From positions 1 through 32,141 of the forward strand of contig JAFYOR010000047.1 in assembly GCA_017547805.1 (NCBI GenBank): 32,141 bases of DNA, in the 5' to 3' direction. The notes beneath the pieces were generated by a model, which searched no databases, was not told the DNA's origin, and saw only the letters and a list, made by a program, of their open reading frames with translations. Position 1 is the stretch's first letter, and every line of letters begins with the position of its first letter. The position numbers and the translations under genes are program-made. Below, one piece after another: positions 6,752 through 32,141 of this stretch. The stretch is from Clostridia bacterium (lineage in GTDB: Bacteria > Bacillota > Clostridia > Christensenellales > Aristaeellaceae).

Positions 6752-7282
6752 TTATCGTGCGGTGATCTGCGGAATACGCCGCAGGAGAGAAGAAACGGGC
6801 TTGTAGAGCGCGAGCATGAGCACGAAATTGCCTGCGCCGTGCAGAAGATCAAAGGGAATGCCGGAAATCCACCATGCCAGCATCTGGCGAAGGCCCATCA
6901 TGGCGCCGCCTGCGGACGCGCCGATGAAGAAATACGGAAAAGAACACAGAAATCCGAAGGACAATCCGTACGCGCCGGAGACGATTGCCCAGAAAAAGGC
7001 GGAATCGTTCTTTCTGAAAAGGTGCGCGATGAGCGAGAGCAGCGGCCATGCATACAGGTACATCACCCACCACAGGCCAAAGCCGTAGAGCGTTCCTTCG
7101 ATGAGGATGAGCGCGGGGACGGTCAGCAGCGTCAGATGTTCGAAATGCAGCGTAAAGAGAATGAGCAGAAAGCTCGTCATCTCGATATTGGGCAGCCCCT
7201 GCATCGCCAGCTTCAATGCTTCTATGATGGCGATCATCATGCCTGCCGTGGCGACGTCACGCGCGACAAAGCGGCGGCTCAC
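6752..7282 (-). CDS. ECF transporter S component, probably for cobalamin
   Basis: A 176-aa hydrophobic protein with about five or six membrane segments and the size typical of substrate-binding S components of energy-coupling-factor importers. The ATPases and T component are not in the window and may be shared. It starts with GTG at 7282 and overlaps the stop of the DUF4430 gene (GTGA). There is no strong ribosome site of its own, suggesting translational coupling. The cobalamin riboswitch upstream is the main evidence for the substrate; the sequence alone would only say vitamin S component. Confidence 0.82.
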   Translation of the reverse strand: MSRRFVARDVATAGMMIAIIEALKLAMQGLPNIEMTSFLLILFTLHFEHLTLLTVPALILIEGTLYGFGLWWVMYLYAWPLLSLIAHLFRKNDSAFFWAIVSGAYGLSFGFLCSFPYFFIGASAGGAMMGLRQMLAWWISGIPFDLLHGAGNFVLMLALYKPVSSLLRRIPQITAR

Positions 7283-7695
7283 TTCGTATAGACGATGGAG
7301 AACGCATCGCCGTCATTCACAGGCTGCTCATCAACGCCGTAATTGCAGTATTCGCCGTTGACATTGAAGCTCCAGTAGGAGGCGTCCACGCTGTAGTCGG
7401 CGGTTTCGCCGTTGACGGTATCAATCATCAGGCCGTATGCGCCTTCCGTGCCGGAGTAGGTGAGGCCTTCGGCTTCATCCATTGCCTGACGAAGGTACTG
7501 CGCGTCGGTCTTCAGCGCGTAGCTGGTCGTTTCCGCCTTGGAATTGACGACGGAGATGGTGATTTGCTTGCTGCCGGCAACGGGCTTTTCGCGGAAGGTG
7601 AAATACGTCAGCGCAAGCACAGCGGCGAGGAGCACGAGCAGCGAGGCGGCGATGACATTCTTGCCGGGGAAGCGGGCGGGTTTCTTTGCAGTCAT
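7279..7695 (-). CDS. Membrane-anchored DUF4430 protein (transcobalamin C-terminal-like)
   Basis: A 138-aa protein: a basic N-terminus, one membrane anchor (about 14-33), then an extracellular DUF4430 domain (about 43-138). The family pattern is recognisable in AQYLRQAMDEAEGLTY, YWSFNVNGEYCNYGVDEQ and VNDGDAFSIVYT. DUF4430 resembles the C-terminal cobalamin-contacting domain of transcobalamin and intrinsic factor. The start at 7695 is chosen because AGAAAGGATG lies just upstream; the longer open frame runs back into the riboswitch terminator. Being first in a B12-riboswitch operon with an S component, it most likely captures corrinoids at the cell surface for import. No lipobox is seen. Confidence 0.85.
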   Translation of the reverse strand: MTAKKPARFPGKNVIAASLLVLLAAVLALTYFTFREKPVAGSKQITISVVNSKAETTSYALKTDAQYLRQAMDEAEGLTYSGTEGAYGLMIDTVNGETADYSVDASYWSFNVNGEYCNYGVDEQPVNDGDAFSIVYTK

Positions 7696-7773
7696 GGGGA
7701 ACATCCTTTCTATGGTTGTTTGGGAATATGGACGGGCGACAGAGACGCTGCCATACGCCCGAAAGAAAGGATA

Positions 7774-7800
7774 GAAAAAGCCCGCGCAGATGCGCAGGCA
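7774..7800 (-). terminator. Riboswitch expression-platform terminator
   Basis: On the minus strand GCCTGCGC pairs with GCGCGGGC (7792-7799 and 7780-7787), followed by TTTTT. It lies between the cobalamin aptamer and the DUF4430 start, so it is the probable ligand-controlled stop. Confidence 0.85.
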
Positions 7801-7871
7801 AAAAACACCCATCCAGAAAATCGGAAATGCATGTTTTCAGCCAATAACTCGTGGCTGAGCAACTAATCTCC

Positions 7872-8051
7872 CCGGCAGGTCTTCTGACTTGGCGATCGGC
7901 ATCCTGCCCCGTCTTCCCGGGTTTCCCCAGTGACATGGTGGCGCAGGACTCCCGCCTTACAGCGACGAGTTCGTGCAGGACTTGCACCTGCTTCCCTTTT
8001 CATTCGTCTGTCATGCATGACAGGCGGACACCGTGGATGCTCTGTTCACAT
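7872..8051 (-). promoter_or_regulatory. Cobalamin (B12) riboswitch aptamer
   Basis: Read on the minus strand, the conserved elements appear in order: GGGAAGCAGGTGCAAGTCCTG, then GCTGTAAGGCGGGAGTCC, then GCCACCATGTCACTGGGG, and finally the B12 end box AAGTCAGAAGACCTGCC. This is the canonical arrangement. The downstream terminator indicates transcriptional control: high B12 would shut off the DUF4430 and S-component genes. Confidence 0.95.
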
Positions 8052-19542: not shown

Positions 19543-19643
19543 AGTTGCATGGGAAATTGCGTGAAATTGCCCGCGTGCGCCATGCTGCATATCGCGCGGA
19601 CTCGGGTGGAAGTGGCGGCGCGCTTTTTTAATATATAAGAAAT

Positions 19644-20125
19644 GCGCCAAAGTATCGGCCGCGTACGCAGAAGAAACAGAGAGCACGGAGCGTTTCGGAT
19701 ATGGGAGCGGGCACTGCCCGCTTTTTTGTTGTATAAGAAACTGCGCCAAAGTATCGGCCGCGTATGCAGAAGAAACAGAGAGCACGGAGCGTTTCGGATA
19801 TGGGGGCGGGCACTGCCCGCTTTTTTGTTGTATAAGAAACTGCGCCAAAGTATCGGCCGCGTACGCAGAAGAAACAGAGAGCACGGAGCGTTTCGGATAT
19901 GGGGGCGGGCACTGCCCGCTTTTTTATTGTATAAGAAATGCGCCAAAGTATCGGCCGCGTACGCAGAAGAAACAGAGAGCACGGAGCGTTTCGGATATGG
20001 GAGCGGGCACTGCCCGCTTTTTTATTGTATAAGAAACTGCGCCAAAGTATCGGCCGCGTATGCAGAAGAAACAGAGAGCACGGAGCGTTTCAGATATGGG
20101 GGCGGGTACTGCCCGCTTCTTTGTT
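19644..20125 (+). repeat. Five tandem 98-99 bp units, each ending in a terminator hairpin
   Basis: Units begin GCGCCAAAGTATCGGCCGCG at 19644, 19743, 19842, 19940 and 20039. Spacings are 99, 99, 98 and 99. Each carries AGAAGAAACAGAGAGCACGG, then AGCGGGC-ACT-GCCCGCT followed by TTTTTT, an excellent intrinsic terminator; the fifth is slightly degraded. A CTGC/GCAG pairing near the unit start is also retained. Because 99 is a multiple of three, open frames run across the array on both strands and would encode 33-residue repeats, but the 98-bp unit breaks the frame and the substitutions are not synonymous. I therefore call it non-coding. A diverged partial unit may precede it (about 19560-19643). 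Confidence 0.93.
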
Positions 20126-30936: not shown

Positions 30937-31731
30937 ATGGAGATGCTGTTTTTTGCAGCGGTTGTTGCGTATTTTGCAGCGATGATGCTGCAGTCCGCCG
31001 GCGCGATGCTCGGCAATGAGAAGCTTTGCCGCGCTGCGCATGGCGTATTTGCCGCCGGTTTTGCGCTGCACACGGTGTTTACTGTCTGGCGCGGCATTGC
31101 TGCAGGCCGTTTGCCTCTGGCCAATCAGTTTGAGTTTGCGTCTGGCTTTGCATGGTCGGCGGCGATCATGGGCCTGATTCTTCATGCGAAGCTGCGTCAG
31201 GAATGGACGCTGACGGTGAGCATGCCGGTTGCGTTTCTGGTGCTTTCCTATGCTGCGTTTCAGCCGATGCAGATCACGGATCTGATGCCCGCGCTGCGCA
31301 GCACGTGGTTTGCGCTGCATATCGGCTCTGCAACGTTTTCCTATGCGTCTTTTGCGATTGCGGGCGGCATGGGTGCGCAGTATCTGCTGATGCTCAGGCG
31401 CGGCCATGCACAAGACGAGACGCGCATGAAGCAGACGGACTACATGTCCTACCGGCTGATCTGCCTTGGCTTCCTGCTGCTGACGGTCGTGATTCTCTCC
31501 GGCGCCATCTGGGCCGAGCAGGCGTGGAGCCGCTGGTGGAGCTGGGATCCGAAGGAGACGTGGGCGCTGATTACGTGGATTCTCTACGCGATCTATCTGC
31601 ATCAGCGCATGCGCATGAAGTGGCAGGGCAAGCGCATGGCATGGTTTGCGGTGATTGCGGTGCTTTGCGTGCTGTTCACCTTTGCCGGCGTCAATAAGCT
31701 GCTGCCGGGTCTGCATTCCTATGCGGTATAA
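30937..31731 (+). CDS. ccsA: Cytochrome c biogenesis protein CcsA (ResC-like)
   Basis: A 264-aa polytopic haem-handling protein of System II. The WWD signature is clear: IWAEQAWSRWWSWDPKETWALITW. Conserved histidines appear in FALHTVF, WFALHIGSATFSY and GLHSYA. About eight membrane segments. GAGGAGGAA within the end of resB is its ribosome site, so the pair is co-translated. In Wolinella a fused CcsBA-type protein (NrfI) is dedicated to the CxxCK haem of NrfA; here the two halves are separate genes in the same operon. Confidence 0.94.
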   Translation: MEMLFFAAVVAYFAAMMLQSAGAMLGNEKLCRAAHGVFAAGFALHTVFTVWRGIAAGRLPLANQFEFASGFAWSAAIMGLILHAKLRQEWTLTVSMPVAFLVLSYAAFQPMQITDLMPALRSTWFALHIGSATFSYASFAIAGGMGAQYLLMLRRGHAQDETRMKQTDYMSYRLICLGFLLLTVVILSGAIWAEQAWSRWWSWDPKETWALITWILYAIYLHQRMRMKWQGKRMAWFAVIAVLCVLFTFAGVNKLLPGLHSYAV

Positions 31732-31742
31732 ATGAATGAATG

Positions 31743-31794
31743 AAAACACCCTTCTCAAAGCGTCCGGTTTAGCGCGTTGGGAGGGGTGTTTTTG
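31743..31794 (+). terminator. Terminator of the nrfA-resB-ccsA operon
   Basis: AAAACACCC (from 31743) pairs with GGGTGTTTT, and the pairing continues inward with wobbles for about 16 pairs; a TTTTT tract ends it. Confidence 0.85.
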
Positions 31795-31924
31795 CGGGGG
31801 ATTGTTGACTGCAGGAGGGGAATCTCCTCTCGCGGCTTAGGCGGAGCGAGGGTTGGGCGGCTCTGAGGGCCCACTGGGCCCTCATTCACTACCGCCCCAG
31901 GTTCGATTCCCCTCATCCGTGATA

Positions 31925-31966
31925 CTCAAATAAAAAACACCCCGTGAAGGGGTGTTTTTATTTGAG
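31925..31966. terminator. Symmetrical terminator after structured unit 1
   Basis: CTCAAATAAAAAACACCCC and GGGGTGTTTTTATTTGAG pair almost perfectly over about 18 bases, with A/T tracts on both sides, so it can stop transcription in either direction. Confidence 0.85.
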
Positions 31967-32084
31967 TGGAGGTGAGGGGAACTCCTCTCGCGCCCTCGAC
32001 GGGCACTCGGTCAGGGCGGCTCTGAGGCCACACTGTGGCCTCATTCACTCCCGCCCCAGGTTCGTTTCCCCTCACTCCTTTTTC

Positions 32085-32124
32085 TCAAAATCAAAAAGCA
32101 CCCTTTAAGGGTGCTTTTGACTTT
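32085..32124. terminator. Symmetrical terminator after structured unit 2
   Basis: AAAAGCACCCT and AGGGTGCTTTT form the core stem at about 32094-32117, extended by TCAAAA/TTTTGA. Same layout as the one after unit 1 but a different stem sequence. Confidence 0.85.
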
Positions 32125-32141
32125 GGTGGAGGTGAGGGGAA

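Follow-up and report, generated by a model that had tools for sequence, protein, structure and literature searches.

Folded tandem units at tRNA and tmRNA 3′ ends in Clostridia, a candidate site-specific mobile cassette

The window analysed here, meaning the whole stretch of 32,141 nt, carries at its edge (31811-32141) two units of ~115 nt and the start of a third (Table 1). The units are spaced 158-159 nt apart, and the repeat aligns over 105 nt at 78% identity and over a further 27 nt at 78%. An earlier note on this DNA had described a tandem repeat of this make-up, with compensatory base changes between its copies and a symmetrical terminator of its own behind each unit, and all of this was borne out. 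The base changes are exact in the sequence: G31869-C31879 of unit 1 is replaced by C32028-G32038 in unit 2, and C31871-G31877 by A32030-T32036. Of the possible third unit 15 nt are present, and these same bases are also the antisense of a tmRNA 3′ end.

Table 1. Parts of the repeat at the edge of the window and its local surroundings.
Feature	Position	Strand	Basis or remark
Terminator-like hairpin behind the final gene (30937-31731), external to the distal unit	31743..31792	+	Inverted repeat I1, 20-nt arms, 85% complementary
Unit 1, complete	31813-31916		Symmetrical terminator next
Left arm of unit 1: incomplete antisense copy of tmRNA 3′ end	31813..31824	-	By-eye comparison with L021; terminal stem in fold
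Unit 1 core, with hairpin B before hairpin C	31825..31898	+	Fold, alignment, covariation
Unit 1 hairpin C, stem S1	31855-31860 / 31892-31897		
Unit 1 hairpin C, upper stem	31864-31872 / 31876-31884		
Unit 1 right arm: tmRNA T-loop, T-stem and acceptor part, sense (AGGTTCGATTCCCCTCAT)	31899..31916	+	By-eye comparison with L021
Unit 1 symmetrical terminator	31924..31967	.	Inverted repeat I2, 13-nt arms, 100%
Unit 2, complete	31968-32078		Symmetrical terminator next
Unit 2 left arm: antisense copy of tmRNA 3′ end (GGAGGTGAGGGGAA)	31968..31981	-	By-eye comparison with L021
Unit 2 core: hairpin B and hairpin C	31982..32057	+	Fold, alignment, covariation
Unit 2 hairpin C, stem S1	32014-32019 / 32051-32056		
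Unit 2 hairpin C, upper stem	32023-32031 / 32035-32043		
Unit 2 right arm (AGGTTCGTTTCCCCTCACTCC)	32058..32078	+	Sequence; fold
Unit 2 symmetrical terminator	about 32085..32125	.	Inverted repeat I4, 12-nt arms, 100%
Antisense tmRNA 3′ end, from the tmRNA gene or from a third unit's left arm	32127..32141	-	Contig end

The window ends where its contig (G000:C34) ends. A cmscan match to the 3′ end of tmRNA lies at 32124-32141 on the minus strand; its 16.4 bits fall short of the 47 set as gathering score. A tmRNA stands at the end of a second contig of this genome (C80), which breaks off within the terminator just behind it, and in other genomes the tmRNA directly adjoins such units (L022, L023, L033). 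From the antisense match at the last bases, together with these other contigs, the neighbour gene of the window units is predicted to be the tmRNA. Since the last 15 bases are antisense to the tmRNA 3′ end and the contig stops there, what follows beyond 32141 may be the tmRNA itself or another unit. Elsewhere in the window we observed a cobalamin riboswitch (7857-8050, minus strand, 115.2 bits) with a 177-aa open reading frame just downstream of it (7279-7812, minus strand), and a tandem array of a 99-bp unit at 19621-20122 (5.1 copies, 96% matches) that yields repeated peptides in several frames.

Read along the core strand, a unit consists of a left arm, hairpin B, hairpin C, a right arm and a terminator, followed by either the tRNA or the left arm of the next unit. 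The left arm is an antisense copy of the 3′ end of the tRNA, reaching the T-loop, and the right arm carries the T-loop, the T-stem and often the acceptor part of the same tRNA in the sense orientation. Hairpin C is built from stem S1, an internal loop (CTC / TTCACT), an upper stem and a loop ACN. For both units of the window, the fold scores better than those of dinucleotide-shuffled sequences (z -3.05 and -4.08). When 47 units were aligned, 11 of 16 pairs had changes on both sides. Pairing was kept in 98.1% of cells against 77.1% in shuffles, and 152 cells were doubly changed against 55.1 in shuffles; for both measures 0 of 500 shuffles reached the observed value. Moreover, pairing fell to 35-48% when the partners were slid against each other. 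The number of further pair types (24 against 21.3, reached by 59 of 500 shuffles) is not outstanding, and in all four of five measures lie beyond all 500 shuffles. The proposal that these repeats are structured and covary is supported.

At gathering score, no Rfam family matched the window units or 12 other loci, and the matches that were obtained there at that score were the cobalamin riboswitch, tRNAs and tmRNAs only. A permissive search (E up to 10) of 31700-32141 gave 28 matches, all below their gathering scores. The earlier note likewise did not recognise the fold as a known riboswitch, tRNA or attC site. Our literature search, which covered titles and the beginnings of abstracts, mostly of papers outside subscription, returned no account of such an element.

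The unit is dispersed. DNA searches gave 21 matches on 13 contigs of the same genome, a few of them being terminator or tmRNA fragments, and matches to a window unit in 12 of 29 genomes of the genus, its own included. A covariance model built from the 47 units of the window's genus (R1), as had been suggested from the window alone, recovered a dispersed family. Of 250 genomes sampled from the family, 59 had a match (E up to 0.001), and these fell into 15 of 50 genera. At E up to 1e-5 the model matched 17 of 297 genomes from the order (four of the 17 are the genome itself or belong to its genus or family) and 9 of 291 from the class (one is the genome itself). Copy numbers of units are lower bounds, because stricter filters were applied and a limited number of candidates was scored per genome. 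Among the 80 core matches listed of 118, nearly all came from assemblies of Clostridia, Clostridiales, Oscillospiraceae and Ruminococcaceae, many of them from the ruminant gut. Plasmid and phage collections held no match to the window unit. The core pattern was present in 15 IMG/VR stretches, and in these we found no tyrosine-recombinase pattern in open frames of at least 110 aa and no tRNA. As separate observations, three genomes of genus g101, which belongs to another family of the order (G317, G336 and G459), carry at least 11 or at least 12 units each, placed at many tRNA or tmRNA ends (G336 is an assembly of 10 contigs, 97% complete), and a 47-aa peptide read in locus L351 lacks a Pfam match.

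Where do these units lie? We took a census of 283 cores, from loci de-duplicated by their 60-nt flanks, for tRNA or tmRNA genes within 150 nt. Such a gene was found at 94 of the 283 cores, and in 91 of the 94 the nearest one lay downstream and antisense, with its 3′ end facing the core at a median of 74 nt (range 41-140). Stricter de-duplication left 252 cores, with 89 of 92 in this arrangement. In the three exceptions (L337, L338 and L368) the unit sits between two tRNAs and the nearest is not the usual one; these loci also have a downstream antisense tRNA, 38-53 nt from the model match. As many as 27 kinds of tRNA or tmRNA are used, among them tmRNA 11 times and tRNA-Ala(GGC) 10 times. In a second set, obtained with a loose pattern that admits some false cores, 47 of 147 hits had an antisense downstream tRNA or tmRNA within 600 nt. 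The remaining 100 were without any tRNA within 600 nt, 25 of them lying within 250 nt of the downstream end of their stretch. No tRNA lies within 150 nt of the other 189 of the 283 cores, many of which are located in other palindromes or near contig ends, and tRNA ends are therefore one context among others.

The arms track the particular gene beside them. The left arm matched the 3′ end of its own tRNA at 15 or more of 18 positions in 65 of 87 cases, compared with 0.9% of pairings with other tRNAs, and the right arm matched its own tRNA at 13 or more of 18 in 42 of 87, compared with 2.7%. The right arm of many units copies no more than the T-loop and T-stem faithfully. Its T-loop reads TTCGA in 57 of 91 proximal units, TTCAA in 17, TC in place of GA in 10, and is different or was not found in 7. 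This flip of the central T-loop dinucleotide in the inverted arm (GA to TC, 10/91) was seen at tRNA-Val, Ala, Trp, Ser and tmRNA.

To compare occupied with unoccupied sites, 29 readable tRNA-Val(GAC) genes of the genus were classified by eye. The core is present in seven and another hairpin with the same layout in three, one is decayed and 18 have no unit, the window's own genome (L301) being among the last. An automatic pattern, which was loose, gave 15 filled and 14 empty sites, and the by-eye counts are used instead; L302, L306, L307, L317 and L318 were flagged as core-bearing by that pattern and rejected on reading their flanks, L307 being the decayed site. A recognisable flank directly after CCA is common to 10 of the 18 empty sites. 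The terminator next to tRNA-Val is of a different type in 10 of the 11 filled-type sites and in none of the 18 empty ones. Moreover, the empty-site flank recurs beyond the unit in 5 of the 11 (L294, L295, L297, L304 and L311), with the tRNA 3′ end repeated before it; in the four core-bearing sites this second copy starts in the T-loop. From the shift of this flank, the insertion measures about 176-180 bp in L295, L304 and L311, and 273 bp in L297, which includes a second hairpin element. The added DNA comprises a terminator of the different type, a tRNA arm in inverted orientation, the core and a second tRNA 3′ end, in direct orientation, from the T-loop onwards. Thus, between empty and filled sites, the 3′ end of tRNA-Val has been restored and duplicated. 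At L298, L303 and L320 (3/11) the proximal and distal flanks share one terminator type. Some lineages may have this type as their resident terminator, or an earlier insertion may lie there.

A wider comparison of flanks was carried out on 64 units, setting 45 nt on the tRNA side against 45 nt beyond the unit with the 95% level of the background as the limit. The two flanks were unlike in 34 of the 64 and alike in 30, as plain tandem duplication would also give. Because the outer copy had been placed wrongly in at least one case (L365), we added the condition of a strong hairpin on both sides. It was present in 13 of the 34 units with unlike flanks, and so these are flanked by two unrelated terminators.

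Two or more units follow one another at 20 of the 85 tRNA-anchored loci, some of which overlap. Such arrays hold two to four units, with a median gap of 123 nt from core to core and a period of about 155 nt; by another count L190 has five. A typical unit of about 155-180 bp is too short for any gene, an integrase included. Larger segments do occur. Behind a tRNA-Ala (L027, 998-5440), 1.5 kb with a Macro-domain and 2.9 kb with MFS_1 and AraC-type matches are situated between units. These are possible gene-bearing cassettes but could be islands, since the two segments share a tRNA-proximal stretch in their open frames. We also observed the second hairpin element (GCATAGTCGC or its complement) in the same architecture behind tRNA-Val at L294, L296, L320 and L297; at L297 it lies inside the S1 stem of a unit, and a similar sequence is found in L027.

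The types of base pair were counted in the upper stem of hairpin C, across 263 modules with 47 different 5-mers at five variable pairs. Real RNA stems tolerate G-U and not A-C. Of 1315 cells, 1290 were Watson-Crick, 10 G-T, 5 A-C and 10 other. As controls from the same loci, tRNA acceptor stems gave 814 Watson-Crick, 43 G-T, 2 A-C and 2 other (861 cells), and the terminators of the units gave 738, 46, 2 and 4 (790 cells). Thus the upper stem has 0.8% G-T and 0.4% A-C, compared with 5-6% and 0.2-0.3% in the RNA controls, for modules that needed at least 3 Watson-Crick pairs of 5 (with similar conditions for the controls) and cells that are not independent because the loci are related. Stem S1 is less clean (16 G-T, 12 A-C and 109 other in 736 cells), its fixed register misfitting some variants. 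The upper stem, then, tolerates neither G-T nor A-C, and this near-absence of G-T points to a DNA hairpin rather than RNA. Against this, hairpin B most often has the loop C(TGCG)G, of UNCG type (28 of 196, in a crude search that often picked other hairpins). Loops of this type stabilise RNA, which argues for RNA. Near-perfect Watson-Crick stems could also arise by template-switch correction of palindromes. Strong covariation with constant loops is accordingly no proof of RNA, and it was the balance of G-T and A-C that separated this stem from RNA stems. The original proposal had been an undescribed ncRNA or a structured mobile element; the mobile option stands, and the RNA reading fares poorly given an upper stem almost devoid of G-T.

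We sought an enzyme that might move the units. Y1 transposases do not track them: 21 of the 59 genomes with units have one, as do 66 of the 191 lacking units (a manual count that takes both draws from the family as the same 250 genomes). Neither IS110-type transposases, in 7 of the 29 genomes of the genus (3 unit-positive, 4 unit-negative), nor serine recombinases, in 27 of the 29, showed an association. Tyrosine recombinases were present in 14 of 14 genomes, unit-positive and unit-negative alike. An integron integrase (TIGR02249 over cut-off) was found in 0 of 20 unit-carrying genomes, and weak matches to this model occur in 19 of these 20 and in 14 of 14 control genomes. Tyrosine integrases lie beside some units only, at tRNA-Val in G005 and tRNA-Trp in G000. 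In L279, about 330 nt separate the core of a tRNA-Val unit from an integrase of 371 aa (PF00589, 63.7 bits), and another integrase is near the tRNA-Trp units of L009/L048; among 12 long flanks, one contained the tyrosine recombinase pattern. Second partial tRNA copies that begin near the anticodon, at about 3840-3895 of L009 (tRNA-Trp) and about 5040-5105 of L280 (tRNA-Val), are probably island insertions with integrase remnants in the same genes.

Our preferred explanation, to which we assign a probability of about 0.6, is that the units are site-specific mobile cassettes which enter tRNA and tmRNA genes at the T-loop/3′ end and may move as folded single-strand DNA. The position of the units, arms that follow the tRNA, filled and empty sites (for one tRNA), the different terminator and the tandem arrays are direct observations. 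That a cassette of about 155-180 bp, usually gene-free, inserts at the T-loop/3′ end of tRNA and tmRNA genes is very probable. The folded single strand comes from the statistics of the stem, and we would put it at slightly under an even chance. On the strand of the tRNA, the cassette would bring a replacement tRNA 3′ end and then its own terminator, next an inverted copy of the T-arm, often with the acceptor half, and then the conserved core of two hairpins, while the old tRNA 3′ end and its terminator would be pushed outward by the insertion. In the model, a single strand of cassette DNA folds and its two tRNA arms pair into a duplex copy of the T-arm. A putative site-specific recombinase would join this duplex to the double-stranded T-arm of the gene, and recombination between the two would insert the cassette and leave the layout observed. 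Recombination of a folded strand would account for arms that track the tRNA and for stems that covary with neither conserved sequence nor wobble pairs, and a cassette would account for an insertion that carries its own terminator. The model leaves unexplained the copies of the core in REP-like palindromes and in phage intergenic regions; judging by these copies, the core would seem to be a hairpin-borne module of more general occurrence.

Three other explanations were weighed against the mobile cassette. The units might be scars of attachment sites, in which case they would be attL or attP fragments of phages or integrative islands with integrases that target tRNA 3′ ends, and the hairpin would belong to attP. 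Duplication of a tRNA 3′ end is the trace expected of an integrase, and islands with tyrosine integrases do occupy the same tRNA genes (L279, and L009/L048 near the tRNA-Trp units). However, the second tRNA copies in L280 and L009 begin in the anticodon region, whereas the crossover of the units is in the T-loop. The rarity of tyrosine recombinase patterns in long flanks (1/12), the commonness of gene-free unit arrays among anchored loci and the occurrence of the core in phage intergenic regions and other palindromes likewise make scars unlikely. A retroviral-style origin primed by tRNA was also entertained, as the left arm resembles a primer-binding site; it was rejected because the duplicated stretch continues into the terminator.

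Alternatively, slippage and snap-back copying at tRNA terminators could have produced the units passively, template switching keeping the hairpins paired with no dedicated mobility. The almost purely Watson-Crick upper stem would be expected of such a process, as would the 30 of 64 units with flanks alike and the three of 11 tRNA-Val sites with one terminator type on both sides. Yet the same core is found at 27 kinds of tRNA and tmRNA and in several families of the class, flanks are unlike in the other 34 units (13 with strong hairpins on both sides), and the terminator beside tRNA-Val differs in 10 of 11 filled sites against 0 of 18 empty ones, so that we regard a passive origin as quite improbable. 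A structured ncRNA family, be it a small RNA gene or an element of the tRNA trailer, selected for its function as RNA would be in keeping with strong covariation around constant loops, with a terminator after each unit and with the UNCG-type loop of hairpin B. It has a slim chance, however, when on the core strand the upper stem has 0.8% G-T and 0.4% A-C where the controls have 5-6% and 0.2-0.3%, when the core is antisense to the tRNA and patchily present among genomes, and when its hairpin recurs in unrelated contexts, phage contigs included.

Among known systems, the mobile cassette most invites comparison with integrons, island integration and short repeats. After attI, an integron cassette runs as half-site, cargo, inverted half-site, hairpin and half-site, and our units, as read from their sequence, show the same order of parts after their landing site. 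As in attC, the hairpin is kept in structure more than in sequence, and just as integron arrays are tandem cassettes ending in a folded palindromic site, the units stand in tandem at 20 of 85 anchored loci. In contrast to integrons, the landing site is a tRNA T-arm, the cargo is usually only a terminator, and an integron integrase over cut-off was encountered in 0 of 20 genomes. The R′ and R′′ boxes of attC have the consensus GTTRRRY / RYYYAAC, whereas the half-site of a unit is centred on TTCGA or TTCAA, with C and not R after TT. Genomic islands, phages and tycheposons that integrate at tRNA 3′ ends restore the tRNA and duplicate its 3′ part, as the units do; unlike islands and tycheposons, a unit is about 155-180 bp, typically gene-free, and combines a folded core with a further tRNA arm in inverted orientation. 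The RtT repeats of E. coli, located behind tyrT, resemble the units in their tandem arrangement, in their length and in each carrying a copied tRNA 3′ end, but the units use 27 kinds of tRNA/tmRNA and have a covarying core. RtT gave no match on 31700-32141 at E up to 10 and no gathering-score match in 12 loci. REP/BIME and MITE-like elements are likewise short, dispersed, palindromic and mostly gene-free, and the core itself occurs in REP-like palindromes, but the units differ from REP/BIME in having no Y1/RAYT association, in lying 3′ of tRNAs with a fixed polarity and in having arms that track the tRNA. STAXI is another tandem structured motif for which single-stranded DNA and RNA were weighed, its authors leaning to RNA because of UUCG loops; it is described as pseudoknots in Enterobacteriales near DNA-handling genes (PMC2864571). 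It shares with our unit the tandem structured motif and the question of DNA or RNA. Anchoring at tRNAs, as seen for the units, does not figure in that account of STAXI (PMC2864571).

Taken together, the tRNA-end cassette looks like an undescribed kind of mobile cassette. More tentatively, and perhaps less probably than not, there may be an integron-like system across the Clostridia with tRNA and tmRNA genes as landing sites, in which a putative recombinase would insert folded cassettes of ~160 nt that bring a new 3′ end and terminator, whose target could be re-programmed through the outer stem and whose arrays would also take up gene-bearing cassettes. We would place the unit among the short palindromic mobile elements, and were the integron-like reading true it would form a separate kind. 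If the insertion is real, a unit of ~155-180 bp would, to our knowledge, be among the smallest site-specific mobile units, and it would be a testable question whether a folded DNA hairpin takes the T-arm of a tRNA gene as its partner in the way attC takes attI. The tRNA genes of many gut Clostridia would then have been given new 3′ ends and new terminators repeatedly.
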